A stretch of 64,000 bases of DNA, taken from NCBI RefSeq assembly GCF_024347075.1, contig NZ_AP024900.1, forward strand, positions 1,674,001-1,738,000. Reading direction: 5' to 3'. This document shows, piece by piece, positions 141-22,964 of the stretch; position 1 is the first letter of the stretch, and each line of letters starts with the position of its first letter. The DNA is from Vibrio rarus. GTDB taxonomy: Bacteria; Pseudomonadota; Gammaproteobacteria; Enterobacterales; Vibrionaceae. The translations under genes and the position numbers were made by a program. The notes under the pieces were generated by a model that was not told where the DNA came from, searched no databases, and saw only the letters and a list, made by a program, of their open reading frames with translations.

Positions 141-1271
141 TCAGCAAATGTTGATTTGCTCAAAGTTCTCAATAAATTCGTCCGTGCTATATGCCTTCCA
201 CCCGACCCTCTCTAAAGCCATTTTTTCATAGCTATCTAATACAACGGCCAAATTATGTAACGGCCACGCTAACTCCGCTATTATCTTTGATTGGGGACCA
301 TTGATAGAAAAACCTACTTTAGGCTTAGATAATCGTTGTTTTTTACACAGGTGAAGAACACCATGTACAGCAGGATCTGAAAATTCAAACAAGTCATGCC
401 AACTATTACTACTGTTTAGAATACCTTGCTGATTACGAAGTTGAATAATCATTTGACGCTGTTCGTGAGTCACAAACATATGTTCATGAAAAGCTTCTTT
501 ACTATGGCAATCTATACATAGTGCAATTAAATTAGAGTCTAGATTATTACTTTTCACTCCATCTTTATGATGAGTATGTAGTAAATAACTCGTCCTAACA
601 CCACTTAAGTTGACGTTACACTTCTCACAGCAATACCCTTTCGTGTATTTATAATTTGAACTTATTCTAGGCCAATCAGATGTATATATATCACGTATGT
701 CATCGGCTCTTTTAGTTGGTAAATGCTTAAAATGGGAGCTAAATGTTGAAAAGAACTCATCCATTGTAAAACGATTAAATATCGTTCTCTTTTCACCTCC
801 CACTTGATAGCCCTGATAATTCAAATGAGCAAGGCAAACTTTACACACCTTAAGCCCTGCTTCACCTTCAATGTACTGCCCAGAATACTTATTAGACCCT
901 GTGACAATGAATTGTTCAGAAGTATCATTAGTCACAACATAGCGATCAAAACGCCCTCGCTCGCGCATAATCTTCAATACTTTACAATCTGCCACATGAT
1001 ACTTTCTTCCCGTACTGCCATCTTCGATAGCACCAAGCACTGAAGAACCATGATCGCGAATATAAAGAAGAACTTGGCGACCTTTATAACTAAGTAAGCC
1101 CGCCGATGATTCCACTTCCTCAAGAGAGACTACAAGTCCCTCTGCAAGGTTGATATCTATTGGCTCTCTTGGCGATATTAGGACTGAGCTTGATGAAAAC
1201 TCTCCAGCTTTACTTGGATTCATCAATGTCACAGCTTTAGTGAGTCTAGAAAGGTTAAATGTTAATTTCAT
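141..1271 (-). CDS. zorE: ZorE-like HNH endonuclease of a Type II Zorya system
   Basis: A 376-residue protein with an HNH nuclease core at about residues 214-260: Cys215/Cys218, the His232-Thr-His-His cluster, Asn in the middle, and Cys252/Cys255-His256, the usual Zn-ribbon plus beta-beta-alpha layout. A second CxxC pair lies at 143/146. In Type II Zorya the third gene after zorA and zorB encodes an HNH protein (ZorE) thought to cut or nick phage DNA once the ZorAB motor has sensed infection. This gene starts 7 bp after zorB in the same direction, so it is the last gene of the operon. Assignment rests on gene order plus the HNH motif. An unrelated HNH nuclease is possible but unlikely in this position. 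The 140 bases downstream hold no recognisable gene. Confidence 0.85.
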   Translation of the reverse strand: MKLTFNLSRLTKAVTLMNPSKAGEFSSSSVLISPREPIDINLAEGLVVSLEEVESSAGLLSYKGRQVLLYIRDHGSSVLGAIEDGSTGRKYHVADCKVLKIMRERGRFDRYVVTNDTSEQFIVTGSNKYSGQYIEGEAGLKVCKVCLAHLNYQGYQVGGEKRTIFNRFTMDEFFSTFSSHFKHLPTKRADDIRDIYTSDWPRISSNYKYTKGYCCEKCNVNLSGVRTSYLLHTHHKDGVKSNNLDSNLIALCIDCHSKEAFHEHMFVTHEQRQMIIQLRNQQGILNSSNSWHDLFEFSDPAVHGVLHLCKKQRLSKPKVGFSINGPQSKIIAELAWPLHNLAVVLDSYEKMALERVGWKAYSTDEFIENFEQINIC

Positions 1272-1278
1272 CTATTGG

Positions 1279-2109
1279 CTAATTATTATGTAGTTCTAAT
1301 TGCTTAGTACAAAGTGATGTTACATCAGTAACGTGAGGGTTTTCCATTGCACTTTCCATACACGACTCTAAATTATAATGACTTGGGTTCTCACTGTTAG
1401 CATCATCAGACAATATTCGACGAATTTGTTCTTCTGCATTAGTAATCACTCGAAAAGATACGCGCCTAGACTTGGCCGCATTTTCAGTACCATTATCATT
1501 TAATATCAGTTTAGATGATGAATAACCAACCGCAGCAATATTAGACTTAACCCACTGCCTTTGAGGATTGTCTAAGCTTTTTAATTCCATTATGTAATTT
1601 AAAACGACTCTCGTTCTAGATTGAGACAGAGCCATATTACGGAAATAAGCTTCATTTACAGAGGAGTCTCTATTCCAACCACTAGATGTATGCCCTTCAA
1701 TACGTATTTCTTGAATTGAAAAATGATACTTGCGTAATGTTCTCAAATATCTTGGAATAAAATCATCTAAGATTGAACGAAACTTCCTTGTTAAGGTTGC
1801 ATGTCCATTAGCAAACAATACTTCAGGAGAGTTAAAATTTAAACTGAGTGTATTTCGATCAATTTCAGCACCCCATGACTTTAAATCTTTCTGAAATTCT
1901 TTAACTAAAGCTTGATATATTGCTTCTTGAGTTTGTTCGTATGCTTTGGCAACATCTTTGATTTTATCTCTTTCTGACAATGCATGTTGCATCAATGACA
2001 CGGAGATAAATAAGAACACCATCATTAGTCCAGCCATCAGATCTGAAACTGACATCCAGTGTTCACCACCCTCACCTTTACGCTTAGCTGTTCCAAAAAT
2101 CTTATTCAT
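1279..2109 (-). CDS. zorB: Zorya subunit ZorB, MotB/OmpA-like stator protein
   Basis: 276 residues. One N-terminal membrane helix (about 18-42) carries an Asp at residue 23 in the sequence MSVSDLMAGL, matching the ion-conducting Asp of MotB, TolR, ExbD and ZorB. An OmpA-like peptidoglycan-binding domain follows at about 85-225 (motifs IEGHTSSGW and LSQSRTRVVLNYI). The C-terminal 50 residues look like a short tail. In Zorya, ZorB dimers sit inside the ZorA pentamer, anchor it to the cell wall and use the ion gradient. The start is 2 nt after the zorA stop, which implies translational coupling. Confidence 0.93.
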   Translation of the reverse strand: MNKIFGTAKRKGEGGEHWMSVSDLMAGLMMVFLFISVSLMQHALSERDKIKDVAKAYEQTQEAIYQALVKEFQKDLKSWGAEIDRNTLSLNFNSPEVLFANGHATLTRKFRSILDDFIPRYLRTLRKYHFSIQEIRIEGHTSSGWNRDSSVNEAYFRNMALSQSRTRVVLNYIMELKSLDNPQRQWVKSNIAAVGYSSSKLILNDNGTENAAKSRRVSFRVITNAEEQIRRILSDDANSENPSHYNLESCMESAMENPHVTDVTSLCTKQLELHNN

Positions 2110-2111
2110 TA

Positions 2112-3884
2112 TTAAACACCTTGTCGCGCATGACTAATTACTTTAGCCATCTCATTAGTTAAATGAGTATAATCACGAGTAAACTGCTGGGTTACAGTAG
2201 CTAATTCACGCCCCATTAGCTCAATCACTCGATTGATCTCCTGTTGCATTTCTTCATCTAAATATTTTACTTGGCTACCAACAGCTGAACCTGTTTTACT
2301 AACTGTGTCCTTTATGACATGTTCAACTGAATCAAAAGTGCGTTGGATTTCTCGAGCCTGCAGTGCAAACACTTCTTGCAAAGAGCCTTCTAGTTTATTT
2401 TGCAAATTAGTAATAGCACTTAATGTCTCATCACGTATGGTTTGAGTATCTAATACCAGTTGTTGATTAGCATTTCGCAAAGTGTCACTTGTTACTTTCG
2501 CGTCATCCTTAATACCCGTCACTAAGGATCTCATGATATTATTTAAATCTTCTAAGCCATCCTTGAGTTCATCTCGTATTTTTTCAGCAGCACTAGTTAC
2601 TTCGTTATTCATATTTTTCATGTTTGAAGTCGCTTCCGAAGCATTACTCTCGAATGCTTGAGATGCCTCAGCTAATTTGCCCCCAATACTGATAACCGAT
2701 TGGTTGAGTTCCTTAGAAATTTCTTGCGCACCGGAAAATAGTGAGGTTTTAATTTCATCTGCACTTTCTATACTTACTTTATTAAAATCTTCAACAGACT
2801 GTTTTGATTGCTCAAGCATATTAGAGTAATGCGTCGAAGCAGCGTCTACAGAACTAGAAACTTGCTTCATAACCAAATCTAATTGACTTTGGATCTGAGG
2901 CATCGCTGCAATGGCTTTATCTCTCAATTCATTGAATGCTTTTAAACGCTCTTCTAAATCTGTAATTTGCCCATGATTTAACGACATGACTTCCTGTAAT
3001 TTTTCCATTGATTGAGGTATAGACTCAGCTTTATCACTGATATGAGCAACGGATTCCTCTGTTTGACTGATAGCTTCAACTCCTAAGCGGTATTTATCTG
3101 CCATATCCTGTAATTGAATTCGATAATTATCCTGCCACTCTACTAATTTCTTTACTGAGTCATCTAAGCGTTTGAAATTTTCGCCAAACTGTTCAGTAAG
3201 GTGCTTATTAAAATCAACAATCACCTCCTTTAAAGCATTAATTACTTGCTCAGTAGCTGATTTTGAAAGAAGGTCACCAAAGTGCTGTAATTCAGCCCAA
3301 AGTTTATCTTGGAACTGATGAAAAGATTCACTTTGTTTATTCATTGAATCTAAAATTCTTTGATTGTCATCTTTATTATCAATACGTAAACGCTTAATTT
3401 GAGAGGCTAGTGATGAGTCCTCCTCTCCTTTAATTGCACCTACCAACTCTTTGGTCACTGATATGTTTTCTTGGAATAAATCGGATTGCTTACTGATGAC
3501 TTGATAGATTTGCTCTGGACCTACATCTACTATCTCTTCATCATCTTGGCTAATATATCCAAGCCACGTCTTTAAAATTATGGACGAAAGCATACCGCAT
3601 AGACTTGTGATAAAAGCTGTTTTTAAGCCTTCTAATAACAACGAAATAGAGTTATCAATATTATTTGGATCAAAATCCATCAATCCCACAACAATACCAC
3701 TAAAGGTACCAAGAATGCCTAATGATGTAAGTAAATTAGGCGCATAATCAATAAAATCCCTTTGAATGTTATGATAAGAAAAATATATACTTATGACTAA
3801 GACACAGATTATAACTAATAAAAAAGCATCTGAAATTGTAGCAGCTGTAAAACTACTAATGAAATGGGCAAGTAATTCGGACAT
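2112..3884 (-). CDS. zorA: Zorya subunit ZorA, MotA/TolQ/ExbB-like with long coiled-coil tail
   Basis: 590 residues. Three membrane helices (about 16-36, 51-69 and 84-106) have the MotA/TolQ/ExbB pattern, including the small-residue segment LGILGTFSGIVVGL. From about residue 130 to the end the protein is predicted coiled coil (many SxxEEI, KELNQ and TSxAEK type heptads). This matches ZorA, whose long cytoplasmic tail couples the membrane motor to the effector. The ATG is preceded by GAGAGAA at good spacing. It is the first gene of the zorABE operon. About 160 bp separate it from the upstream five-gene module on the same strand, so shared transcription is possible but not shown. Confidence 0.93.
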   Translation of the reverse strand: MSELLAHFISSFTAATISDAFLLVIICVLVISIYFSYHNIQRDFIDYAPNLLTSLGILGTFSGIVVGLMDFDPNNIDNSISLLLEGLKTAFITSLCGMLSSIILKTWLGYISQDDEEIVDVGPEQIYQVISKQSDLFQENISVTKELVGAIKGEEDSSLASQIKRLRIDNKDDNQRILDSMNKQSESFHQFQDKLWAELQHFGDLLSKSATEQVINALKEVIVDFNKHLTEQFGENFKRLDDSVKKLVEWQDNYRIQLQDMADKYRLGVEAISQTEESVAHISDKAESIPQSMEKLQEVMSLNHGQITDLEERLKAFNELRDKAIAAMPQIQSQLDLVMKQVSSSVDAASTHYSNMLEQSKQSVEDFNKVSIESADEIKTSLFSGAQEISKELNQSVISIGGKLAEASQAFESNASEATSNMKNMNNEVTSAAEKIRDELKDGLEDLNNIMRSLVTGIKDDAKVTSDTLRNANQQLVLDTQTIRDETLSAITNLQNKLEGSLQEVFALQAREIQRTFDSVEHVIKDTVSKTGSAVGSQVKYLDEEMQQEINRVIELMGRELATVTQQFTRDYTHLTNEMAKVISHARQGV

Positions 3885-4044: not shown

Positions 4045-4392
4045 TTAATTTACGTTAGTAGTTAAATCATTCGCCAGCGTAATTTCCGTATTATCAGGTA
4101 TTGAATCTTCATTATGAACATCACTTAAGTAAATATCAGCATACTCCCTCTTTACAGACATCCCCTTAATAAAATACCCTGTTAAAGTATCAGACAGTAT
4201 TAATTTATTATGATTTCTAAATTTTACATTTAAATACCAACCACCATACGATCTCACTTTTATATCAATTACGAGACCATCCCCCCATAATCGATGATTT
4301 AATGTCATCCCATGCTCAACTTCAAAAACGTTATGCAACTCATGAGAATATTGTTTTAAACACTCTTGAAGTGAGTACTCAAGATGACACAT
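4045..4392 (-). CDS. Small protein with an SH3/Tudor-like fold signature, unknown function
   Basis: 115 residues, no signal peptide or membrane helix. The middle (about 28-75) has the pattern HRLWGDGLVIDI followed by WYLNVKFRNHNKLIL. That resembles small beta-barrel domains (CarD/TRCF-type Tudor or SH3-like), which typically read H-x-x-FG-x-GxV, then VxF, then KxL. The resemblance is by eye only. It is the last of five minus-strand genes, starting 6 bp after its neighbour, so it belongs to the same transcript. The cytoplasmic location suggests it is the non-membrane partner of the module. I do not recognise the family. Confidence 0.65.
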   Translation of the reverse strand: MCHLEYSLQECLKQYSHELHNVFEVEHGMTLNHRLWGDGLVIDIKVRSYGGWYLNVKFRNHNKLILSDTLTGYFIKGMSVKREYADIYLSDVHNEDSIPDNTEITLANDLTTNVN

Positions 4393-4398
4393 ATAATC

Positions 4399-5091
4399 CT
4401 ATTCCTGTACTAAATCTGGTACTTGTTCTAAATCTTTGTCTCCAAGGGTATTAGAACCATTAATTTTTACACCATCACAATCTATATAAATTTTGCCATT
4501 TCGCCGTATTTGAGTGCACTCATCAGGGATCACTTTTACCTTTTTCTCGACAACTTTTTCAACAGGAACTTCAACGGGAACTTCAACACGTTTTTCAACA
4601 GGTACCTCAACGACTTTTTCAACTTTTTTAATCAATGGCTCTTCAGTGACCCAGCGGTATGCTCTATATAGCCCTAATGAAATGATGCCTATTAAAAACA
4701 ATAACAGTACTAATTTGATGAGTGTATGCAGGATAAACATAATCGAATCTCTTTTCTGTTCATTCCTGCTTTTTCTCAGATTATATACATCAGATTTAGC
4801 TTGTTCATGTACAACACGAACTCTGGCTTCTTCTTGGGCTATCTGTGTTTTAATTTGCTGCTGCTTTAATCTACCCGTATCACCTGCATCAAGTGCACCA
4901 GATATATCCTTACCCTGAGCCTTTTCATTTGCAATCTCTGCTTCAATTTTTGCGGCCTCAAGTTGCTCTTTTAATACTTCAGTTTTATGTTTTAATTCCT
5001 CAATCTCAGCTTGCTGCTCTCTCTTTCGTTGATTCTTCAACCACTTCTTCCGGTTTAACTCTTGTAGTTTTCTGAGATCTAGACTCCGCAT
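4399..5091 (-). CDS. Coiled-coil, single-pass membrane protein with Glu-Val-Pro repeats
   Basis: 230 residues. A charged coiled coil (about 8-112) is followed by one membrane helix (about 117-141) and then a repeat tract (about 157-188) built from EVPVEK/VVEK units. The C-terminus contains DECTQ...YIDCDG, two Cys that could form a disulfide if it lies in the periplasm. The start is supported by GAGGAA seven to eight bases before ATG, although this makes it overlap the preceding gene by 86 bp in another frame. The neighbour upstream has the same repeat type, so the two probably interact. Function unknown; a structural, envelope-spanning role is inferred. Confidence 0.75.
   Translation of the reverse strand: MRSLDLRKLQELNRKKWLKNQRKREQQAEIEELKHKTEVLKEQLEAAKIEAEIANEKAQGKDISGALDAGDTGRLKQQQIKTQIAQEEARVRVVHEQAKSDVYNLRKSRNEQKRDSIMFILHTLIKLVLLLFLIGIISLGLYRAYRWVTEEPLIKKVEKVVEVPVEKRVEVPVEVPVEKVVEKKVKVIPDECTQIRRNGKIYIDCDGVKINGSNTLGDKDLEQVPDLVQE
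4543..4632 (-). repeat. Degenerate tandem repeat encoding EVPVE units
   Basis: On the plus strand a phrase like ttcaac(a/g)gGaacttcaac recurs in tandem at about 15-30 base intervals. It encodes the EVPVEK-type repeats of the 230-residue membrane protein. Boundaries are approximate. Confidence 0.7.
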
Positions 5092-6433
5092 CGAGTAATT
5101 CCTCTAATTCATTAGCTGTAATGTTTTCTGGGATAGGTACAATTCGTTCATGTATGATAATTTGTGGCTCTTTTATAACCATTGGTTCACTTACCTTGTG
5201 AATCCTCTCTACGTACACTGGTACTTCCATTTCAACTGGAACTTCGACTATTTTCTCAATTTCGACTTCAACAATCTTTTCCACTTCAACAATACGCTCA
5301 ACCTCTTTCTCAATCTCAACTTCGACTATTTTCTCTACTTCAACTATTCGTTCTATTTCTTTTTCAATTTCTATAGGCACCTCTATCGTAGTGGTTACCT
5401 GTAAGGTTTTATTACGTCTATGAGCCCAAACTCGTAAATATTTCAATAATTTAGTTAATAAAATTTTTCTTATTTCTATATTATATTTTTTATGATCTAA
5501 ACGCTTTATTCTACGTTCGATATGCTCTTTGGTATTTAGTGAACTAAGTAGATTTAAAATAAAGTACACTGGATATATCAAGGCTGATAGGAAACTCACA
5601 AATGCACCAAAAGGATCGTCAAACTTAACACCAAACCAAGAACTTACTTTATTAACAATTGCAACATACATGTCCTTCTTCTGACTGTATGCACTTTTAG
5701 TTTCAGCATGTGCATGATTAGTTTGCGCTACTTTATTACGTAACTCAGACATCTGCTCCCTAGCCTTTATATTACTGCTTTCTAAGGTTCTTATATTGTT
5801 ACTATTAGATTCTTTATTTTTTTGTGAAGTCTCTATTGCTCTATTTAACGCATCCAATTGCTTTGTGAAATTCTTGACGGCTGCTGAACAATCTGGATTT
5901 AATGAACAATCTTTAGCTGTTTTTCTTCTCTCGCTATCTTGAATATTTATCTTTGATAGTTGAGTAGAATCTTTATGTATTTGATCATCAATTTGTAAGT
6001 TTCGTTCTCTTAGAGAATTTATTTCTATCTGATTATCAGCAATATCGCGTTTTAAATCTTCTATTTGCTTCTCACGAGTTGCATTATTATTTTCAGCTGT
6101 TTTAACAATTTTTACATCTCCTGTTGCTAAATCATTCAGGTAACTATTGATACCAACATAGCTAATAAACCAAAATGACGGTACAAGAATGAACATTGCA
6201 AACTTTAATACCCAACTAGTTGTATACCAACCTTCTATTACCTTTGATGTCCACATTAAAACAGCTGCTTCAGTTACAAATAGAAGTACTGAAAATGGAT
6301 TAATGGAATAGGCGTGATTTGGAAATAATATTCCATAACCAAGAACATTGAAGCCAACGATAAGAAAACCTAACAGTATAGTCATGAGATTTATCCCATG
6401 ATATGTATTGAATTTTTTATTTATTTTTGTCAT
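5006..6433 (-). CDS. Multi-pass membrane protein with coiled coil and long Glu-Val repeat tail
   Basis: 475 residues. Three N-terminal hydrophobic helices (about 15-37, 46-62, 74-95), a coiled coil (about 110-245) containing a Cys pair in CSLNPDCS, another hydrophobic segment (about 275-298), and then a tail (about 350-420) of repeats such as EIERIVEVEKIVEVE and EVPVEMEVPVYVE. The tail is likely an extended or stacked beta/coiled rod. The start codon overlaps the upstream stop by 4 bp (ATGA), and the 3' end overlaps the next gene by 86 bp. No catalytic motif is visible. I do not recognise the family. A scaffold coupling the membrane to a cytoplasmic or periplasmic partner is an inference. Confidence 0.75.
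   Translation of the reverse strand: MTKINKKFNTYHGINLMTILLGFLIVGFNVLGYGILFPNHAYSINPFSVLLFVTEAAVLMWTSKVIEGWYTTSWVLKFAMFILVPSFWFISYVGINSYLNDLATGDVKIVKTAENNNATREKQIEDLKRDIADNQIEINSLRERNLQIDDQIHKDSTQLSKINIQDSERRKTAKDCSLNPDCSAAVKNFTKQLDALNRAIETSQKNKESNSNNIRTLESSNIKAREQMSELRNKVAQTNHAHAETKSAYSQKKDMYVAIVNKVSSWFGVKFDDPFGAFVSFLSALIYPVYFILNLLSSLNTKEHIERRIKRLDHKKYNIEIRKILLTKLLKYLRVWAHRRNKTLQVTTTIEVPIEIEKEIERIVEVEKIVEVEIEKEVERIVEVEKIVEVEIEKIVEVPVEMEVPVYVERIHKVSEPMVIKEPQIIIHERIVPIPENITANELEELLDAESRSQKTTRVKPEEVVEESTKERAAS
5212..5392 (-). repeat. Degenerate tandem repeat encoding IVEVEKIVEVE units
   Basis: About 180 bp of repeated ttcgactattttctc/cacttcaacaatacgctc-type phrases on the plus strand, encoding the Glu/Val-rich tail of the 475-residue protein. 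It is similar in kind to the repeat at 4543-4632, so the two genes could exchange sequence by recombination. Limits are approximate. Confidence 0.7.
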
Positions 6434-7350
6434 TTTATTCTTTCAACTTTCATAAAGTTACTAATGTTATCTTCCGTTAAAATTAACATCTGATCTCGAC
6501 CATAATTATTCATAAAATCGTTATATAGTTCTTCATTACCACCGATATAATTCCAATATGGTTTATATATATTATATATGTGTCTTTTAAATTTTTCCGT
6601 ATCAGCTTTATTAGGGTCATAAGGACGATGAAAACCTATTTCTGCACCTGACTGTATTTGTTTAAATACACCTGATGCGTATATAATTCCACAAGCTGAA
6701 TAGCACTTCATATATTTATCGCTTGCAGCACCCCACTGATGCTCTTGCATATATGTACCAATTTTTATAGCTTCATTCATTAACCCACCAGGACTATGCA
6801 TCATGATCCTATTTAAATTAATCCCTTTCTTATTATAATAGTTAATATAACGGAGGAATTTATCATATGTACCTTTTACTATCATTCCCTCACCATAAAG
6901 ATAATAACCCTGAGAGTCTTCACCTAGCATAAAAATGATTTTAGTACTATTAGCTAACGGGTGACCTATTCTCTTTGGTGCCGTTATTGGTGGCATGGGT
7001 TCAGGTAATGGTGGCGCTATATGGTGTACTTTATTTTTTATTTTCTTATCTTTATTATCTTTATTATCTTTATTATCCAAACCATTATTCATTTTTGTAT
7101 TTTTAAGTATGGATTTATGTTTCTTATCTTTTCCCTCGTGCTTATTACTCTTAGTTATAACATGATTTGATTTATTTTCAGAATGGCTGTCATTTTTAAT
7201 TTTAGAGCTTAAATATGATTTTTCTTTATCAATTGTGTGACTATCACTTTTTTTATTTAGATCATGTGGCACTGTATTACTACAACTACACAATATCAGC
7301 AGAGCACTTAACACAATGTCATTTTTACTAAACACTTTAATTCCTAACAT
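6430..7350 (-). CDS. Lipoprotein with ClpP-like serine protease domain (COG3904-like)
   Basis: 306 residues. An N-terminal hydrophobic segment (about 11-20) runs into Cys21/Cys23, a plausible though not ideal lipobox. A low-complexity Lys/Asn/Asp linker (about 30-110) and a proline stretch (PPLPEPMPP) lead into a domain at about 135-300. That domain shows the ClpP/crotonase-type signatures: HSPGG (Ser186, oxyanion loop), KCYSACG (Ser218, the expected nucleophile) and IGFHRPY (His241). This pattern is seen in predicted periplasmic ClpP-like proteins. The upstream Shine-Dalgarno is weak. The gene ends in a 4-bp overlap with the next one. Inferred role: a surface-tethered periplasmic protease or peptidase in an envelope complex. 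The substrate is unknown. Confidence 0.75.
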   Translation of the reverse strand: MLGIKVFSKNDIVLSALLILCSCSNTVPHDLNKKSDSHTIDKEKSYLSSKIKNDSHSENKSNHVITKSNKHEGKDKKHKSILKNTKMNNGLDNKDNKDNKDKKIKNKVHHIAPPLPEPMPPITAPKRIGHPLANSTKIIFMLGEDSQGYYLYGEGMIVKGTYDKFLRYINYYNKKGINLNRIMMHSPGGLMNEAIKIGTYMQEHQWGAASDKYMKCYSACGIIYASGVFKQIQSGAEIGFHRPYDPNKADTEKFKRHIYNIYKPYWNYIGGNEELYNDFMNNYGRDQMLILTEDNISNFMKVERIK

Positions 7351-7398
7351 TTATAAAAACAATACAAACTCACACTCACATGAGTTACAAAAATCTTT

Positions 7399-7758
7399 TT
7401 ACTTCCTTAACACATCAACACCATGTGATTGACTTTTTTCCTTTATAAATTTTGCTGACACCCAAGCACCAACACTAGGAATAAATAATATTAATGCAAT
7501 ATGAATAAATCGGTATTTAATCACATTTGAAAATACATACTCTATATAGTTAGAGTCCTTAAAGTACACGCGAATAATAATAGCAAGGGATAATACAGAC
7601 ATAAATTTACTTTCTGAGTTAACTAAAAACCCATAGTCTTTACACTGATAATACAACCATGGAATCATACTCATTATGACCATAAGATAGAATATTCTAT
7701 CAAAAATGTGCACACTATTAACACGCTCGATTTCATCCATTTTACTACACCTAATCAT
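7399..7758 (-). CDS. Small multi-pass membrane protein, unknown
   Basis: 119 residues, with hydrophobic segments at about 22-38, 48-62 and 84-105 separated by short charged loops. Met7 (MDEIERV) could be the true start. It is the first gene of the five-gene minus-strand module, 48 bp ahead of the lipoprotein protease gene. No motif recognised. Very AT-rich like the rest of the module, which suggests horizontal origin. Confidence 0.6.
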   Translation of the reverse strand: MIRCSKMDEIERVNSVHIFDRIFYLMVIMSMIPWLYYQCKDYGFLVNSESKFMSVLSLAIIIRVYFKDSNYIEYVFSNVIKYRFIHIALILFIPSVGAWVSAKFIKEKSQSHGVDVLRK

Positions 7759-7985
7759 AAGACCTATTTAATTTCAGACATAGGTTTCAACTTTATTCGA
7801 GTTTGCGCATAACAACATGACGCATATTAAATCTGAATAAAATCTGTTTATTGTATCCTCACCCGTATAATTAAATAGGAATAAAATTTTATTTTTGTTC
7901 ACCTTTAGTTTCATATGCGTCATTAGACCTCTGAGTTCTATCAGAATCTAATTAAGGTCTACAATTATTCATGTGAGACAAATAC

Positions 7986-8012
7986 AAAAAAGACGCCCCA
8001 TGGACGTCTTAA
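7986..8012 (-). terminator. Rho-independent terminator of rhlE
   Basis: Stem AAGACG / CGTCTT around loop ccccatgga at about 7990-8010. On the minus strand it is followed by TTTTTGTATTT. It lies just beyond the rhlE stop codon. Confidence 0.7.
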
Positions 8013-8038
8013 ATCGGCGTGTAGCTGTGTTGACTCGT

Positions 8039-9331
8039 TTACTTCTTAGTGCCTGCGGTTCTATTTTTCACCATTTTACGTAATCGAGCGTATCTCTCAG
8101 CAGAACCCTGGCTGGCATCAGAAGGGTTGTTCATTCGAGTTTTACGGTCTTTGAACGCAGGTTTACTGTGCATTTTCTGTAATAGTGCATCACGGTTTTT
8201 TGGCTCGTACCCTGGCTGCTCTACACGTCGAATCGTATGACCAATCAATGACTCTACTTGTTGCAACGTCAGTTCTTCTTCACGGCTTACAAAAGACACA
8301 GCGTGCCCTTTTTGTCCAGCTCGGCCTGTTCGACCAATACGGTGCACATAATCTTCCGCCAAGAATGGCATATCGAAATTCACTACGTGCGGCAGGTCTT
8401 TAATATCTAATCCGCGAGCGGCCACATCGGTGGCAATCATCACACGCGCCTTACCTTCTTTAAATTCGCTAAGTGCTCTACGACGGGCGCTTTGTGCTTT
8501 ATCACCGTGACATAGTACCGCTTTAATGCCATCCAGTTTAAGCTCTTTCAATAACATGTTGGCCGTTTCTTTGTAGTTCACAAAGACCAGTACTTGCTGC
8601 CAGTTCTTTCGACCAATAAGCTCAGATAACATTTCATATTTTCTTTCTTGGTCTACTGGGTAAACAACATGCGCGATAGTATTGGCCGTCGCGTTTTCTT
8701 GAGCTACAGATACTCTTTTCGGTTGATTCAACATATCAGCCGCGAGTTTGTTCATTTGCGCAGAGAAGGTCGCAGAGAACAACATTGTTTGTGGCTTTGT
8801 TGTAACACCAGACATAATCGTTTCAATTGATGAAATAAAGCCCATGTCCAACATACGGTCTGCTTCATCGAAAACCAAGAACTCAAGGTTCTGTAGAGAA
8901 ACACTTTTCTCATCCAAATGCTCTATTAAACGACCAGGTGTTGCCACTAAAATATCCACACCCTTGTTTAGCTTTTGCACCTGAGATGACATTTTTACGC
9001 CACCATAAATGGCAGCAACACTCAATGATGTGTACTTGATATAATCTGCAATACTTTGTGCAATCTGTGCCGCCAATTCACGAGTAGGAGCAAGAACCAG
9101 TGCGCGTGTTTGAAAATGGTTATTCACTTTCTGCTTATCTAATAACTGCTGAATAATTGGCAGAGCGAAAGCGGCAGTTTTACCTGTCCCTGTCTGAGCA
9201 TTGGCTAAGATATCGTGCCCTTTGCGAGCAAGAGGGATCGCTTTTTGCTGAACAGGAGTAAGTTTTTCGTAGCCACACTCTGACAGCGCTTTGACAATTT
9301 CTGAAGAAAAATTCTGAGATGAAAATGACAT
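8039..9331 (-). CDS. rhlE: ATP-dependent DEAD-box RNA helicase RhlE
   Basis: 430 residues with the full DEAD-box set: Q motif LTPVQQKAIP, motif I AQTGTGKT, PTRELA, TPGR, DEAD (VFDEADRMLD), SAT (LFSATFS), the ARGLD segment and motif VI HRIGRTGRAG. The C-terminal 60 residues are basic, as in RhlE-type helicases that act in ribosome assembly and mRNA turnover. ATG is preceded by AGGAA. It is a monocistronic gene with its own terminator, unlike the flanking defence genes, so it may be a core gene between two accessory insertions, or part of the island. SrmB is a less likely alternative. Confidence 0.9.
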   Translation of the reverse strand: MSFSSQNFSSEIVKALSECGYEKLTPVQQKAIPLARKGHDILANAQTGTGKTAAFALPIIQQLLDKQKVNNHFQTRALVLAPTRELAAQIAQSIADYIKYTSLSVAAIYGGVKMSSQVQKLNKGVDILVATPGRLIEHLDEKSVSLQNLEFLVFDEADRMLDMGFISSIETIMSGVTTKPQTMLFSATFSAQMNKLAADMLNQPKRVSVAQENATANTIAHVVYPVDQERKYEMLSELIGRKNWQQVLVFVNYKETANMLLKELKLDGIKAVLCHGDKAQSARRRALSEFKEGKARVMIATDVAARGLDIKDLPHVVNFDMPFLAEDYVHRIGRTGRAGQKGHAVSFVSREEELTLQQVESLIGHTIRRVEQPGYEPKNRDALLQKMHSKPAFKDRKTRMNNPSDASQGSAERYARLRKMVKNRTAGTKK

Positions 9332-10806: not shown

Positions 10807-11769
10807 TTACGAAACTACCAACAAAGTGGCCCTTTCCTTTATGTCATCGTGCCAAGCTAGTTTTTCTAACCAAGATGAAGGAAGTTGACTATAGCCATAA
10901 AACGCTCCTGCCAGTTGTCCATATATTGCAGCGGTAGTATCGGCGTCCTCACCCAAATTTGCCGCTAATAACGCGCCTTCCTTAAAGGTATTGCTATTAG
11001 CAAATGACCATAATGCAGCTTCAAGTGATTTAACGACAAAACCACTTCCTTTGATTTCCTCCCTTGTCTTGGTCAAAAACGATCCCTGCACTACTTGATG
11101 TAAATCATCGTGAATCGTGGTTTTACCCCAATACTGTGCTAGCTGTGTGAACAACTCACTTTTGCTTAATACCCTGCCAATATCATCGAATATTCTGTAC
11201 ATTAGCCAAGCCATAATTTGACAAGACTCAATGGCTCTTTGCTCTGCATGTGTGGTGATGGAGCTTAATTTTGCAGCTTTAAGCACATCTTCCTCTGTAG
11301 CATTTCGGAAAGAAGAATAAAATATCGGGATGGGTGCCAAACGCATCAAACTGCCATTACCGGCGCTCCATTCATCACTAGATCCGGCAACGGCTACATT
11401 TGTCGTTTCATACACACACAAGGCATCAGCGACGGTATTACCAATATCAAAACATTGTCCAGTCACCGAGTTTTCACCCAGTTTCCACCATGCGGTATAA
11501 CGCTTCATTTGATCTTGTGCATTATGCTGACCCACTGCCAACAAACTGTCCGTCAGGCACAACATCATTGAGGTATCGTCCGTCCATTGACCCGGTTGCA
11601 AGTTAAATGGCCCGCCGCCGATGATATCTTCTAGCGGCGTATAAGTGTCTTTTTGGCGAAATTCCAATGTAGTACCTAATGCATCACCGAGCGCTAAGCC
11701 AATCATTGCTCCTTGCGCTCTATCTAGCATCCACTTTTTGTTATCTTTATTATTCGTTGAATGATTCAA
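10807..11769 (-). CDS. ADP-ribosylglycohydrolase (DraG/ARH family)
   Basis: 320 residues. Family signatures are clear: N-terminal GLALGDALG, the metal-binding GQWTDDTSMML, GNGSLMRLAP in the middle and C-terminal LGEDADTTAAIYGQLAGAFYG, giving both Mg-binding Asp clusters. Such enzymes remove ADP-ribose from proteins, nucleic acids or small molecules in the cytoplasm. The first codon of this reading frame is TTG, with AGAGAG upstream; an ATG 13 codons later (near 11730) has a weaker ribosome site. In this operon, with a WYL regulator and an SGNH hydrolase, it may reverse an ADP-ribosyl mark or detoxify one, but no ADP-ribosyltransferase is visible in the window. Confidence 0.9.
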   Translation of the reverse strand: MNHSTNNKDNKKWMLDRAQGAMIGLALGDALGTTLEFRQKDTYTPLEDIIGGGPFNLQPGQWTDDTSMMLCLTDSLLAVGQHNAQDQMKRYTAWWKLGENSVTGQCFDIGNTVADALCVYETTNVAVAGSSDEWSAGNGSLMRLAPIPIFYSSFRNATEEDVLKAAKLSSITTHAEQRAIESCQIMAWLMYRIFDDIGRVLSKSELFTQLAQYWGKTTIHDDLHQVVQGSFLTKTREEIKGSGFVVKSLEAALWSFANSNTFKEGALLAANLGEDADTTAAIYGQLAGAFYGYSQLPSSWLEKLAWHDDIKERATLLVVS

Positions 11770-16088: not shown

Positions 16089-18086
16089 ATGCACGATAAA
16101 GCTCAAAGATTGCGTCAAGCGGTACATGCCGTATTAGAAGGTGACACATTGCATTCGCATCAGGTTTCAGCTGCAAGCAAAACATTTGAAGCCTTTCACG
16201 GTAACGTTAGAGCAGTTGTTACAGCCGCAGAAATGCAAGCTGGTAAATCTGGTATCGCCTTAGCTTTATGTTGCCTACAGCGTTTGAGTTTATCTGATAA
16301 AAATATCTGTGACCGTAAGCAGCTGAAAGATACCCTTTATCTCGTCACAATGCCCGATACAGCCCTAAAGGAACAAGCCGAAGATGATCTAAAACTTGCC
16401 AAGAACGTTATTGTTAGCAACTTCATCAACTTCGAAAAAGCTTTAGAGAATGAATTTAAAGGTAATCCTCCAAAGCTGATCATTATCGACGAATGTCATT
16501 ATGGTTCAAATGTTGCTGCTGTTCGGTATAGCAAGGTATTTGACTACCTAGAAAGAGAGAATGACACCTGTAAAGTTGTCTTTATCTCCGCGACCCCTTT
16601 CGGTGCTCTATATGGTGCTGAAACCGAGTATCAAACTGCTATTGAATATCAGGCCGCTGCAGAGCATAACAACAACCAGAAATTATTAAATCAAGCAAAA
16701 GAAGCTGCTGAAAACGCAATTCGTGACTCCATCTTACGCAGAGACTTCAACACTCGCCTGGTTTTCCATAAAACGAGTGACGAATATTATGGTGTTCGAG
16801 AGATGCTCAAAAGCGGACGGGTTCATGGGCTAGATAAAGACAATAAAAACTTCCTAAATCAATCCGATGAACGAGATTCATTTGTTGAGCATTTCAAAAA
16901 GCATGAAGGTATGGGTTGGTCACTAGTCCGCGTACCTGCTGGCTTTGCAATGGAAGCTAAAGATTTTTTCATCTCGAACGGCATAGATAAAGAATCCGTT
17001 TATATTCTAGGTAACTCTTTAACAGGTGTTCCAGAAGACGAGCACTGTAGCATAGAGCAGTTTAAAAAGATCTTCGATGACGCTCAGCTTTTTGAAGACA
17101 AACTAATAGCTATAACTGTTGCTGGAGCTCGTGCAGGTATTAATTTCGGTTCAATGATGAAAAATGACCTAATCTCGACATGGGATAGCACTATTGCGAG
17201 TGTAGCTGCTGTAGTTCAGGCCAATATTGGACGAGCGTGTGGCTACCATGGCAACAACTCATCTATCCACTTTACAAATCTTAACGCTGCTGAAGCTTAT
17301 GGCGGTATATTAGACCATCTCGAAAAAACATGCTCCGAACATGCAGCATCAGACTTCGAAGGCCTACGAGAATTCTTCGACGATATCTGTCAGGAGTATC
17401 ATGTGAATGGCCTCGATGTCGGTCTAACAATAAAATACAAACGTCGTCGCCCTATTGGTGATGTGGAAACTTACAGTACGCAAGGATATACCGTGGTCCC
17501 TGCCAAACTGTTGGAAAACGACTACGACTTTGAAAAGCATACTAAAGATAAAGATGTTCTTCGAGCAATCCAAACTATTCGCGACGAATTCACTGCAAAA
17601 GGTGCCCCTAGCGTTAAAGGCAACCGTGCTATGCGTGGTAAAAAGAAAAACTGGATTAAAGCTCACTGGATCAATGGTGACAGTTACGACAACCCTGAAA
17701 AAGCTCGTGCTGACGGTACTCAGAAAGAGAAAACTCTGATGTATACAAAAATGCTAGATGACAATGAATATCTTGAGTTTAACAGAGTTGTCGCCCCCGG
17801 TTCCGGTGAACTATCAGAAAATAAGCTGGTTACTGCCGCGATATTTAGCATCTACAACATATCAAGACGTGATGTAAGCAAAAAGATAATGACTCAAGAA
17901 GATGTTTGGGAAATGTGTGATCACTTTGGCGTCGAGCGAGACGACACGTTATTTGTCGTTTATAAACGCGGCGAATACAATATAGAACGCTCAATAGCAA
18001 AGAAAGAACACAACGAACTACCCGAGAAAACGGGAGAACTGAGCGATGAGTCTCACTTCTCAGATACCACAGAATCAACATATTAG
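16089..18086 (+). CDS. SF2 helicase-like ATPase, first of a tandem paralogous pair
   Basis: 665 residues. Superfamily 2 motifs in order: motif I EMQAGKSG (Lys53), motif II DECH (134-137), motif III SATP (167-170), a motif V-like segment TVAGARAGINFG and motif VI QANIGRACGYHG. The GRACGYH ending is typical of a small SF2 branch that reads like Z1/DEAD-type proteins rather than RecQ or DEAD-box RNA helicases. The C-terminal 200 residues are unassigned. The next gene starts 17 bp downstream and is a paralogue over nearly its full length. The Shine-Dalgarno site is weak. A DNA translocase in a defence context is inferred; no nuclease motif is visible. Confidence 0.75.
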   Translation: MHDKAQRLRQAVHAVLEGDTLHSHQVSAASKTFEAFHGNVRAVVTAAEMQAGKSGIALALCCLQRLSLSDKNICDRKQLKDTLYLVTMPDTALKEQAEDDLKLAKNVIVSNFINFEKALENEFKGNPPKLIIIDECHYGSNVAAVRYSKVFDYLERENDTCKVVFISATPFGALYGAETEYQTAIEYQAAAEHNNNQKLLNQAKEAAENAIRDSILRRDFNTRLVFHKTSDEYYGVREMLKSGRVHGLDKDNKNFLNQSDERDSFVEHFKKHEGMGWSLVRVPAGFAMEAKDFFISNGIDKESVYILGNSLTGVPEDEHCSIEQFKKIFDDAQLFEDKLIAITVAGARAGINFGSMMKNDLISTWDSTIASVAAVVQANIGRACGYHGNNSSIHFTNLNAAEAYGGILDHLEKTCSEHAASDFEGLREFFDDICQEYHVNGLDVGLTIKYKRRRPIGDVETYSTQGYTVVPAKLLENDYDFEKHTKDKDVLRAIQTIRDEFTAKGAPSVKGNRAMRGKKKNWIKAHWINGDSYDNPEKARADGTQKEKTLMYTKMLDDNEYLEFNRVVAPGSGELSENKLVTAAIFSIYNISRRDVSKKIMTQEDVWEMCDHFGVERDDTLFVVYKRGEYNIERSIAKKEHNELPEKTGELSDESHFSDTTESTY

Positions 18087-18103
18087 AAGAGAATCAAAGA
18101 ACT

Positions 18104-19963
18104 ATGGAAAACGCTAATAAACATAGAGAGTTGGTACAAAATTCGATGCAAGAGCTCACCTTTGCACACCAAAGAATTGCTGCCGACAAAGCGTTTTCCA
18201 AATTTCAAAATGGCTCTAGAGCAGTAGTTATCGCAGCAGAAATGCAGTCAGGAAAATCAGGAATTTCATTGGCGCTGAGTGGCCTACAAAGACTTTCATT
18301 GCCCGATGATAAAATATGCTCTCGCAAGTACCTTAAAGATACACTCTATCTCGTTACTATGGCTGACATAGCTCTCCAAGAGCAAGCTAAACAAGACCTG
18401 GCTGGAAGTAAAAATGTCATAGTTAGCAATTTCACAAATTTTGAACATTGCCTACGCGCTAGTTTCAAGCATCAGCCTCCCAAGTTAATTATTATCGATG
18501 AGTGCCATTATGGTTCAAGTAATAATAGTGTCCGATACGACGGCATATTTAATTATCTAGAGAAAGAAAATACAGATTGTAAAGTTGCATTTATTTCCGC
18601 CACTCCCTTTAGTGCTTTATATGCTGCAGGGGCTGACTCTATACTTCGTCACAGCTTTAATACATCTTTAGTGTTTCACAAAACAAGCAGCGACTACCAC
18701 GGCATTCGTCAAATGCATCGCAATAACCAAATTATTAAACTCGATGAAGATTTCAGAGACTTTTGCGAAGAGTCCCTACTTCGCAGTCGGTTTATCAGGC
18801 AAATTCGGGAGCATTCGGGTAGCGGTTGGTCTTTGATTCGTGTCCCCTCTAGCCAAGCTAGATTGGCAAAAGACATTCTAGTAGCACAAGGCTTTGAAGC
18901 AGAACAGATTCATATAATTGGCCAAAAGCTGGTTGGCGTAGAAGATTCTGAGCTCTCTTCTATTGAAGACTTTAAGCGTGATTTTGAGGTGGCCCAGCTA
19001 TTTGACGATAAGTTGATCGCAATTACTGTCGCTGGTTTTAGAGCTGGAGTGAACTTCGGTCAAGATATGAAACAAAGCCTCATCAACACATGGGATAGTA
19101 CGATTGCTAACATTGCTGCGGTTGTTCAGGCTAACATTGGTCGTTCATGTGGCTATCACAACAATTCTACGGCAAAACACTACACCAACTTAGACGCTAT
19201 AGGTGCTTATAGTGAGCTATTGGAGCATTTAGAGTCTCGAGATGAAAGTCAAGAATTTGAGGGTCTTCAGGACTTATTTGAACAAGTATGTGATAAATAT
19301 AATGTTAGAGGTTTTGATAGAGGAATTGAAGTTTCACCGTTTAGACAAGTTAAAGAAACGAAAAAACTCGACGACACTAAAACCTACCTAACCAAAGGCT
19401 TTATCGTTGTACCAGGTAAGTTAGCAGAGCTTGACTTTGACTATAGTGCTTACACCCAAGATCCTGAGCTTCTTGAAGCGATAACTCTCATTCGCCAAGA
19501 ATATCTTCAAGATGATGGGCCATATAGGAAGAAAGGTCGTGCAATGCGGGGCAACCACCAGAACTGGGTTAAAGCGCAATGGGTAAATGGCGCTACGTAC
19601 GATGACAACACCGCAAGCTGTGCTAAATCCAGATCGATATCACTCACCTCTAAAATAAATAACGGTGAAGAGATCGAGTTCAATCAAATTGTTAATCCTG
19701 GTGGTGGTGAAAAAACCGAAGATAAGCGTGTTATGGCAAGTGTGTTCAGTATTTATAACCTTTCCGGTCAGATGGATGCATACAAACGTGCAATGGATGA
19801 CGACGACATGCGGGAGATCTGCCGTATTTTTAACGTCGAAGAAGACAACACCCTAATCCTTATCTATCAGCGTGGCAATTTTTCACAAAGTTTGTCAGAT
19901 CATAAAGCTCTTGCTGAAGATAAAGGGCAATATGGTCGTATTCGCCACAAAAGTGTGTTCTAG
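18104..19963 (+). CDS. SF2 helicase-like ATPase, second of a tandem paralogous pair
   Basis: 619 residues, clearly related to the preceding protein along its length: motif I EMQSGKSG (Lys51), motif II DECH at about 132, SATPF, TVAGFRAGVNFG and QANIGRSCGYHN. It lacks an insert of about 30 residues (rich in Ala/Glu/Gln) that the first copy carries after its SATPF motif. ATG has AAGAGA upstream and follows the first gene by 17 bp, so they form one operon ending at the terminator at 19969. Two diverged but intact copies suggest a hetero-oligomer or division of roles rather than recent duplication. Confidence 0.75.
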   Translation: MENANKHRELVQNSMQELTFAHQRIAADKAFSKFQNGSRAVVIAAEMQSGKSGISLALSGLQRLSLPDDKICSRKYLKDTLYLVTMADIALQEQAKQDLAGSKNVIVSNFTNFEHCLRASFKHQPPKLIIIDECHYGSSNNSVRYDGIFNYLEKENTDCKVAFISATPFSALYAAGADSILRHSFNTSLVFHKTSSDYHGIRQMHRNNQIIKLDEDFRDFCEESLLRSRFIRQIREHSGSGWSLIRVPSSQARLAKDILVAQGFEAEQIHIIGQKLVGVEDSELSSIEDFKRDFEVAQLFDDKLIAITVAGFRAGVNFGQDMKQSLINTWDSTIANIAAVVQANIGRSCGYHNNSTAKHYTNLDAIGAYSELLEHLESRDESQEFEGLQDLFEQVCDKYNVRGFDRGIEVSPFRQVKETKKLDDTKTYLTKGFIVVPGKLAELDFDYSAYTQDPELLEAITLIRQEYLQDDGPYRKKGRAMRGNHQNWVKAQWVNGATYDDNTASCAKSRSISLTSKINNGEEIEFNQIVNPGGGEKTEDKRVMASVFSIYNLSGQMDAYKRAMDDDDMREICRIFNVEEDNTLILIYQRGNFSQSLSDHKALAEDKGQYGRIRHKSVF

Positions 19964-20924: not shown

Positions 20925-22964
20925 TTAAGCCTTATTAATATTTAACACAGGCGTCAAACATTCCTGCAATGACAGACCACCGTGATTATAGTGATCACCT
21001 GATACATAACCTGAAATACCAGGAGCCATCGCTATAGAAACATTCGGATTCCAGAACCAAGGTACGACTAAACCATCGTATTGAACATTGCTCTTCAATA
21101 TCGCACAGCGACGTTGACGATTTGTCCCCAATGACTTGTGAATTTCACCTTTTGGTAAGCCATCTGGCACCCATAACCAGCCATGGTCTGTGACGATTTT
21201 GATTCGCTTCCAACCCGCGTCCAATAGACCTCGAATTCGTGCGACAACATCATCTAATACCTGCTCAATGTACTGGGGCATCTTTAACTGTTGCTTGTGA
21301 CCTAAGTTATCTAGGTCTCCTGTTTGCACCCAGGCATAACCATTCTGTTCACCTGTTTCAAGGCCATCTAAGTACTGCCAGCCTCGTTCGGCAAGTAACT
21401 TCTTAAGGTAGTGACTACTAAAAGATGCTTGTGTACTCGCTAATGCTGGAATGAAATCATTGTTATCTTCTAAACCCGTTAGCAAGTCAGCCAACGGTGT
21501 TACCGCGGCTTTGGCTGTTGCTGTCAATGACGGAAGCGCAGACCATTGAGAAGTGAGATCGGTGTTTACACCAATGGCTGAAAGTTTGCTCTCCAATTGC
21601 TTCGCGGTATCGAAACGCAACCCATCAACAAAGAAAATCACTTGGCTACCAACAGAGTAGTTTGCTGATGTTTCTTTTAACTGTTTATCGCCAGGGTAAC
21701 CATTCAATCGGACTTGATCTTGAAAGTTAAGCGCCACCCTTTCCAACCATGGCGTATAGATCACAGCTAGTACATCCGCAACCAACTGCTGATGGTGAAT
21801 ATCTTTCGCTTTTGCCATCGCACTCAGCACTGCGGCATCAGCCTGCCAGAAACGACTGGTATACAACTCAGCCATGCCCTCTGGCGAACCTGATGTAAAT
21901 GGGATCTCTGTATGCTCAAGAACAATCGTAACTTGCTCTAAAATGTCTAACCAAGGAGAAAAGCCTAGCTGAGACCATATCCAATCTTGGCGTGATTGTT
22001 GGCTATTCCACAGTGTAGTGAACGTCTGCTTCAGGTTCTCACGATTACTGCCCGCTATTTGCTTAAATGCCTCTTCAATAGCAGATTCATCACGCAAGTT
22101 TTCGGATAAGTAATTTTGAGCGTCAAAAGCAAGTCCCGATGGTATTACTGTTTTTAGGCGGTCAACCAATGCAGAAAGATTGCTTGCTGTCTCTTCAAAT
22201 CGCTCCCATACGCCTTGCCATACACCTTGAGCATCACAGAGCAACTCTAGAGCAAGTGCTATATTCGCTTCGTTCGGTTCAAAACCGTATCTTGACAAGC
22301 AGGACTGACTGAAAATACCCCACTTACTGCCTTGCCATTGTTCGAACTTTTCCGTTGGGTTATTAAGCCAACCTAGGATGTCTTTGATCGGATCATCCAA
22401 AACGATAGAATAAAAATCTTCAGCCTCTAACCTCTTGCCCTTCAACTTAGTTTCAGGCGTTTCCAACAGATCTGGCAATACTTGGATGATAGCTTCTTGA
22501 GTCTTTTTATCTTTTGCAAGGTCGAGTTCTAGACCTACTTTAGGATTAGTTAGGAACGAACCAACTGACCAGTCACGCCCTGCCGTGTTATACGCCCACC
22601 AGCAACCACGGTATTGTAGTTCAGCCAATGGTTGCAAATTCTCAGGGCATTGCTCAATAGCTCGTAAATCTTTTCGCCCAACACCAGGAAGATAAATGAT
22701 TGGCGTTTTATCTTCAGGTAGTTCGCACTCTTCTAGTTTTGCAGCAATAGCACACTTAACCCAAATCGCTGGGCCTGTACGCTCTTCTGGCTTGTATTCA
22801 CCGAGTTCAATTAGTTCAGGCAACTGCTGCTTGATGTATGGCATTGCGGATTGCCATTGGCAATCAATGTCTGTCCACAAAATGGCAGCAGGTGCTACTT
22901 GAACTGACTTATTAAAAGTTGCTGAGTTTCGCAACTGCTCGATTAAATAATTAACGACTAACAT
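20925..22964 (-). CDS. pglZ: BREX protein PglZ, alkaline-phosphatase-like
   Basis: 679 residues. Alkaline phosphatase superfamily metal-site motifs are present: FFVDGLRFD (Asp), TDHGW and the C-terminal NHGGLSLQE. PglZ is a core BREX protein; members act as metal-dependent nucleases or phosphatase-like enzymes and are needed for both methylation and exclusion. It overlaps the stop of the preceding brxU-like gene by one base (TAATG). Somewhat shorter than many type 1 PglZ proteins, but all key residues are there. Confidence 0.9.
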   Translation of the reverse strand: MLVVNYLIEQLRNSATFNKSVQVAPAAILWTDIDCQWQSAMPYIKQQLPELIELGEYKPEERTGPAIWVKCAIAAKLEECELPEDKTPIIYLPGVGRKDLRAIEQCPENLQPLAELQYRGCWWAYNTAGRDWSVGSFLTNPKVGLELDLAKDKKTQEAIIQVLPDLLETPETKLKGKRLEAEDFYSIVLDDPIKDILGWLNNPTEKFEQWQGSKWGIFSQSCLSRYGFEPNEANIALALELLCDAQGVWQGVWERFEETASNLSALVDRLKTVIPSGLAFDAQNYLSENLRDESAIEEAFKQIAGSNRENLKQTFTTLWNSQQSRQDWIWSQLGFSPWLDILEQVTIVLEHTEIPFTSGSPEGMAELYTSRFWQADAAVLSAMAKAKDIHHQQLVADVLAVIYTPWLERVALNFQDQVRLNGYPGDKQLKETSANYSVGSQVIFFVDGLRFDTAKQLESKLSAIGVNTDLTSQWSALPSLTATAKAAVTPLADLLTGLEDNNDFIPALASTQASFSSHYLKKLLAERGWQYLDGLETGEQNGYAWVQTGDLDNLGHKQQLKMPQYIEQVLDDVVARIRGLLDAGWKRIKIVTDHGWLWVPDGLPKGEIHKSLGTNRQRRCAILKSNVQYDGLVVPWFWNPNVSIAMAPGISGYVSGDHYNHGGLSLQECLTPVLNINKA

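Follow-up and report, generated by a model that had tools for sequence, protein, structure and literature searches.

What are the five minus-strand genes that stand next to a Zorya system in Vibrio rarus, do they form a unit, and what might such a unit do? The stretch analysed, hereafter the window, comprises 64,000 nucleotides of contig NZ_AP024900.1 (assembly GCF_024347075.1, positions 1,674,001 to 1,738,000), and a preliminary description of it had proposed a five-gene envelope module of no named kind. All five open reading frames (ORFs), which we call E, C, A, B and D, are present on the minus strand between 4045 and 7758. As a five-gene unit the proposal had to be rejected, because the searches made turned up no credible relative of E, and D occurs in a single clade; what is conserved is the trio C-A-B, joined by D in that clade. 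It is an unnamed envelope module, with predicted parts from a lipid anchor to the cytoplasm, much as had been supposed. Pfam, PADLOC, NCBIfam and PHROGs gave no solid name for any of the five proteins (C comes closest, matching two PHROGs, one without assigned function at E 3.5e-5 and one annotated as a protease at E 8.4e-4). PADLOC-DB 2.0.0 (2023) returned no named system for them and only weak coiled-coil matches, the best being A to JetC (E 0.0012), and a full-text search of the openly licensed PMC literature found no paper naming the C-A-B module. Nor did the family searches recognise a nuclease or ATPase inside the module, in agreement with the preliminary description.

C-A-B stands in constant order on one strand in 18 cellular loci of Gammaproteobacteria and on one phage contig. 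After merging of duplicates, 20 distinct loci are in hand: the 18 cellular ones (the window, L037, L038, L039, L047-L051, L053-L059, L082 and L083), the phage contig (L060) and L084, which is interrupted by insertion sequences (ISs). Since the order C-A-B(-D) is kept in other species at 27-65% protein identity, its recurrence is far beyond chance. When 247 order-level genomes were searched with C and with A, the same four gave strong matches (G000, G045, G141 and G157), with B adjoining in each, so that strong matches to both occur in 3 of the 246 genomes other than the module's own; the weaker matches were paralogues of the C domain for the C query and repeat proteins for the A query. A C profile found 13 loci among 84,980 species genomes and missed L037, L039, L082 and L083, possibly because they lie outside that collection or lack the patterns used. 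The A profile was positive in 13 of 329 Vibrionaceae genomes, of which ten correspond to the window or to loci found before and three are new (L082, L083 and L084); C-A-B is unbroken in 12 of these 13, which, together with the agreement of the C and A searches, bears out the co-occurrence across genomes that had been put forward as a check. In the thirteenth (G384, L084, 6296-9581), one of two IS transposase genes of identical printed sequence stands next to C and the other separates what is left of A from what is left of B, so that the module looks broken. Among 248 class-level genomes, the A profile found nothing beyond the module's own genome. In 16 of the 17 aligned loci A and B overlap by 1-158 nt (by 86 nt, out of frame, in the window), and in L058 B begins 9 nt after A. 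Plasmid searches found no copies of A, of D or of a GIY-YIG protein that neighbours the module in L059, and the one made with C gave 30 records whose matches are distant and partial, with less than 80% of the query covered in every case. The Glu-Val-Pro repeat, considered as a mark of the family, was rejected, as other repeat proteins match it weakly, for example a 210-residue protein in L002.

D (4045..4392) is a predicted soluble protein of 115 residues that directly follows B in five of the 18 cellular loci (the window, L047, L048, L054 and L082). A D profile was positive in six of 325 Vibrionaceae genomes, namely those five and G554 with a weak match (E 6.6e-5). In a tree of A, a branch with support of 93/92 separates the four D-bearing rows included from all others. 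The weak match in G554 (L110, 6664-7233) is a 189-residue protein with a D-like segment. The 16 kb fetched around it lack C, A and B and contain genes that by eye are OLD/AAA-like, Mrr-like and integrase-like. The SH3/Tudor-like character earlier ascribed to D was not confirmed, the one Pfam match in its favour being sub-threshold (E 0.087). E (7399..7758) encodes a hydrophobic protein of 119 residues and lies 48 bp upstream of C. In 36 genomes of the same genus its search gave E itself and one fragment with a stop (E=0.0076), and by blastp it occurs in none of the 24 fetched loci (L037-L060) nor in seven more. As no credible relative was found in the loci and genomes searched, E is probably outside the conserved module. 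The module's parts in separate, unrelated contexts, or in a known non-defence operon, would speak against a unit; in the searched data we found neither, save for stand-alone paralogues of the C domain and the D-like protein of G554.

The first protein of the unit, C (6430..7350, 306 residues), carries a lipobox with its cysteine at C21, then a variable low-complexity linker, and from about residue 124 to 306 a domain whose AlphaFold model has a mean local confidence (pLDDT) of 96.2. Foldseek gave the stomatin-specific protease PH1510-N as the best PDB match of this domain (E 1.6e-8), followed by ClpP (from E 6.6e-7), and a profile of 21 C-domain sequences also finds these relatives (E 4.9e-5 and 3.3e-4); a full-length C profile gave no match in the same kind of search. 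S218, within a C-Y-S-x-C motif, lies opposite the Ser of ClpP and H241 opposite its His, both of which are catalytic in ClpP. Together with G188-G189 these two residues are invariant in all 17 module C proteins and are kept in four paralogues. C is thus confirmed, at the level of the modelled fold, as a lipoprotein-type protein with a predicted ClpP/NfeD-type serine-protease domain, as the preliminary description had proposed. PH1510 is a Ser-Lys protease, and the titles of its PDB entries name S97 and K138; C differs from it in carrying the ClpP-type His. It further differs from NfeD/PH1510-N and ClpP in being a lipoprotein and in having no ATPase or stomatin gene beside it in the window. The lipobox pattern was found in 15 of 17 C rows, the exceptions being L049, where the motif is slightly different, and the contig-end L058. 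According to the +2 rule, the residue after the lipobox Cys bears on whether a lipoprotein is sorted to the inner or the outer membrane. Because this residue is mostly Ser or Thr, the sequences suggest an outer-membrane placement of C.

A and B are the membrane proteins of the unit, with Glu-Val repeats as previously described. A (5006..6433, 475 residues) appears from its hydropathy to be an inner-membrane protein with N-terminal transmembrane (TM) segments, a putative periplasmic segment, a later TM segment and a basic tail that bears the repeats. Three N-terminal TM segments were counted in 14 of 17 rows and two in the window, L054 and L059, and a stretch of net positive charge comes after the later TM segment in 16 of the 17. 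The gap between the last two TM segments is nearly constant, 178-187 residues and exactly 181 in 11 rows, and contains a C-x5-C motif in all 17 (C176-x5-C182 in the window); the first Cys is preceded by 82 residues in 14 of 17 rows and the second followed by 92, likewise in 14 of 17. Hydrophobic periodicity peaks at 3.50-3.55 in both arms around the motif and at 3.45 over the whole segment, and against shuffled sequences it is significant for the second arm (5/1000) and the whole (0/1000). In the AlphaFold model (pLDDT 81-95 over residues 101-230; whole model 81.0, with a predicted template-modelling score of 0.46), long helices at model residues 92-159 and 167-228 are joined by a short turn at C-x5-C, and the two would pack as an antiparallel hairpin. 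The fold of A found nothing in the PDB at E 0.001 or better, and in BFVD one unnamed protein (E 8.5e-4, TM-score 0.21) and otherwise generic coiled coils. Identification of A as a phage spanin, an SMC or an Abi_C protein was rejected, as these gave sub-threshold coiled-coil matches only and A has no PDB relative. B (4399..5091, 230 residues) has one TM segment in 17 of 17 rows, a conserved start M-R-S-L-D-L and the C-terminal cysteines C192 and C205; M1, D5, L6, P152, C192, G199, C205 and G207 are invariant. No credible PDB relatives were found for B or for D. Charge distribution points to an N-in topology for B and an N-in/C-in topology for A, and the conserved cysteines may form disulfides in A and B, which with C may assemble into a complex.

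The proton-driven motor system noted beside these genes is indeed a type II Zorya by PADLOC, also on the minus strand: ZorA2 (2112..3884; PDLC00640, E 1e-231), whose start at 3884 lies 160 bp past D on the downstream side, ZorB2 (1279..2109; PDLC00641, E 1.6e-101) and the HNH nuclease ZorE2 (141..1271; PDLC00645, E 1e-136). Among the 18 cellular loci, type II Zorya adjoins C-A-B in two, the window and L054 (Vibrio Isolate34), which share the seven-gene order C-A-B-D-ZorA-ZorB-ZorE at 38-67% identity over the matched parts (A 50%, ZorA 48%, ZorB 67%, ZorE 45%); in L054 the gap between D and ZorA is 9 bp. L054 (13302-20153) also holds, after its type II Zorya, another Zorya system that includes a ZorA1-type protein. 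The closest C-A-B-D relatives, L047, L048 and L082, have no Zorya match downstream and adjoin a gene for a 1548-residue alpha-2-macroglobulin-like protein (by eye); on the tree, two changes suffice to explain the Zorya pattern, either a gain plus a loss or a pair of gains. ZorA2 was found in 11 of 369 class-level genomes surveyed, and the stretches around the three strongest besides our own (L111, L112 and L113) contain ZorA, ZorB and ZorE and, by blastp, no C, A, B, D or E. At the window locus the only ZorA2, ZorB2 and ZorE homologues are the downstream neighbours; none of the five proteins under study matches a Zorya model, even at E values as high as 1. The likeness between the two systems is that C-A-B, too, appears to be envelope-spanning and based in the inner membrane, the difference that C-A-B occurs mostly without Zorya. 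Given the shared order in the window and L054, and the D-clade relatives and other type II Zorya loci that lack the counterpart, the link is old or repeated, but optional, and C-A-B as an obligate Zorya subunit was rejected. In the main text of the paper on Zorya modularity (PMC11890865) the words accessory, upstream and neighbour are absent.

From ZorE to E the genes form a co-directional block of low G+C content (GC; 0.30-0.37 for C-A-B-D-E and 0.36 for Zorya, against 0.43 for a BREX system at about 20-36 kb and 0.44 for 37-64 kb), bounded by a lipoprotein-type gene and a DEAD-box gene, both named by eye. The former encodes 1352 residues on the opposite strand to the left of ZorE and is followed by transport genes (by eye). 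Its co-directional low GC and its flanks make the block look like a single insertion of about 7.6 kb. A terminator-like site follows the DEAD-box gene on the minus strand (8010-7990), and the terminator scan lists none on that strand between E and ZorE; in such scans promoter-like matches are at chance level (37 against 38.6 expected) and terminator-like ones near it (6 against 4.5). A scan of 10 window proteins identified the BREX system through matches to PglZ, PglX and BrxC models, and a tRNA-Ser gene lies at 36.7 kb.

Defence neighbours are frequent: with the two Zorya loci counted, recognised defence genes are immediate neighbours in eight of the 18 cellular loci, seven firmly and one weakly. 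A TM-bearing GIY-YIG protein (PF01541) directly follows B in L039 (1-nt overlap) and L059 (5-bp gap). A PD-Lambda-1/SNIPE gene stands convergent to the module 0.7 kb from B in L039 and at 206 bp in L051 (E 1.4e-122 and 2.3e-178), and a T5orf172 protein with a C-terminal TM segment is divergent at 340 bp in L057. In L055, McrBC (PF10117, E 3.7e-104) with an AAA protein is divergent at 293 bp, and in L038 a methyltransferase/HNH-like protein with weak matches lies at 234 bp, with an MzaE-like protein (E 1.2e-101) beyond. Four loci (L039, L051, L057 and L059) thus place C-A-B beside SNIPE or other TM-GIY-YIG proteins. According to the SNIPE report (PMC13190303), SNIPE is a nuclease of the GIY-YIG type that sits in the inner membrane and cuts phage DNA as it is injected; Zorya and Kiwa are mentioned there as entry-stage systems. 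SNIPE is a single protein with DUF4041 and a nuclease domain, neither of which C-A-B has: no DUF4041 or GIY-YIG was found in the five window proteins, nor DUF4041 in the genome of the window.

One copy of the module lies on a phage contig. On this 172-kb IMG/VR contig (L060), C-A-B reads open, with B shortened to 136 residues, and a PHROG_1735 gene lies 2 bp upstream of C. The phage identity of the contig follows from 10 tRNA genes within the 15 kb fetched, the PHROG matches and two genes with relatives in isolate phages; the terminase family PF03237 had no match in it, and neither Zorya nor D was found in the fetched stretch. After C-A-B (6863-8366) come several small secreted pilin-like proteins and a DUF805-like membrane protein, seen by eye. 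This one phage contig was returned by three of five IMG/VR scans, those with a single C protein and with the B profile giving nothing. L060 does carry B and yet went unnoticed in the B-profile scan, which shows that relatives escape pattern scans of this kind. A second contig (L086), found with the C profile, holds a distant paralogue, and among isolate phages the phage-borne A had no match and C gave partial matches in five records. Superinfection-exclusion proteins are likewise envelope proteins carried by phages; C-A-B differs from them in comprising three genes and in showing no sequence relation to them in the family searches made.

Taken together, a conserved unit of patchy distribution, neighbours that act on DNA and of which several carry TM segments, an excess of one nuclease family near the module, the co-directional low-GC block, the envelope-spanning anatomy and the phage copy lead us to propose that C-A-B is a trans-envelope complex acting at the entry of the phage genome, paired with a lineage-specific nuclease that faces the cytoplasm. 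Resting as it does on anatomy and genomic context, this reading has in our estimate a probability of roughly 45%. The lipid anchor and the long flexible linker would tether C to the outer membrane, so that its protease-type domain could reach the ruler-like helical hairpin of A rising from the inner membrane. A, through its basic tail, and B, through its N-terminal part with the conserved start, may then relay to the cytoplasmic side what state the periplasmic part is in. There a partner would act: in the window Zorya II with D, in other loci a GIY-YIG membrane nuclease or SNIPE, which meets injected DNA at the inner membrane. The nuclease excess concerns DUF4041, with 39 occurrences spread over 37 of 197 Vibrionaceae genomes: within 3 kb of the 18 loci two were seen (L039 and L051) against 0.0045 expected, an expectation that was set post hoc for one family, assumes an estimated mean genome of 4.8 Mb and takes the two loci as independent.

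Several observations weigh against this proposal. Defence genes cluster anyway, some neighbours were named by eye, and SNIPE mostly stands without C-A-B (2 of the 39 places adjoin it). The GIY-YIG pair of L039 and L059 and the Zorya pair may each go back to one ancestral event, which would leave about five independent associations. As to the proteins themselves, the position of C opposite the RD motif of ClpP varies, and D250 is invariant in the module and not in the paralogues. The C gene of L058 runs off its contig and that of L083 has no in-frame signal peptide, the periodicity of the first arm of A is not significant (64/1000 shuffles), and PDB searches found no solved relatives of A and B. 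Moreover, ten of the 18 loci (L037, L047-L050, L053, L056, L058, L082 and L083) have no recognised defence gene as an immediate neighbour. In some of these a defence gene lies within 2-5 kb, such as a putAbiC protein 1.9 kb away plus an FRG protein in L058, DndB at 3.8 kb in L050, a type II restriction-modification pair beyond transposases in L048 and a macro-domain protein at 3.5 kb in L082. UvrD/NERD helicases lie beyond transposases in L047, and L083 has a sub-threshold Cas_NE0113 match. In L037, L049, L053 and L056, where neighbours were not scanned with PADLOC, no defence gene was seen by eye in the ORF listings.

These ten loci would also fit an accessory module for envelope maintenance or stress, combining periplasmic proteolysis with a membrane strut, that has no anti-phage role and came to lie near defence genes through mobile islands. 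The stomatin-specific membrane protease as closest fold of C, and the stand-alone paralogues of its domain, two more of them in the module's own genome, agree with such a function. We nevertheless consider it rather unlikely, in view of the patchy distribution (13 of 329 Vibrionaceae, and the own genome alone among the 248 of class level) and of the Zorya systems or GIY-YIG nucleases that several lineages have closely linked to it, at anything between a 1-nt overlap and 340 bp. It could also be that C-A-B-D evolved as subunits or sensors of type II Zorya, and that the stand-alone copies are leftovers. One would then expect what is seen in the window and L054, namely the same seven genes diverging in parallel, the 9-bp gap in L054 and, at the deepest split within the D clade, Zorya-bearing copies on either side. 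However, Zorya adjoins just two of the 18 cellular copies, the stretches fetched around three other type II ZorA genes show no C-A-B-D, and the wider family, which includes a phage copy without a Zorya or D match in its fetched stretch, adjoins other nucleases or none, so that an origin as a true Zorya accessory seems improbable.

A superinfection-exclusion device of phage origin that itself keeps the DNA from passing, by cleaving or occluding the incoming injection machinery, would need no nuclease. That would account for the cellular copies without an adjoining nuclease and for the lack of a recognised nuclease or ATPase in the module, and the tRNA-rich phage contig, with C-A-B 2 bp after a PHROG-matching gene, fits it as well. 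The solitary phage contig, returned by three of five scans, set against the more numerous and more diverse cellular copies, rather suggests that the phage may have acquired the module, and we regard exclusion as quite doubtful.

A few other features of the window and the loci are recorded here. Two tandem PglX-like genes (24762-31540; 1134 and 1125 residues), the first matching PglX at E 0 and the second named by eye, have near-identical first and last parts and differing middles. Between PglX and PglZ (22964-24802) lies a gene for a protein matching PADLOC Orf5 (E 1.9e-74) and HEC-06. Two adjacent paralogous helicase-like proteins (665 and 619 residues, by eye) are encoded on the plus strand of the defence island (16089-19963), the first having no PADLOC match, and ADP-ribosylglycohydrolase-like genes (by eye) lie near the module in two genomes (window 10807-11769; L083 11906-13485).

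If C-A-B is indeed a trans-envelope complex acting at genome entry, a periplasmic protease would join the toolkit of entry-stage immunity. It could further be, although we think this unlikely, that the module is a protease-gated trip-wire across the whole envelope, which senses or attacks the injection machinery and licenses interchangeable nucleases such as Zorya II, GIY-YIG proteins and SNIPE. In that case C-A-B would found a new class of immune device, a modular sensor common to unrelated defence systems and captured by phages too. How Zorya, SNIPE and other such systems recognise DNA injection is still partly open, and C-A-B offers a concrete and cheap experimental handle on that question.

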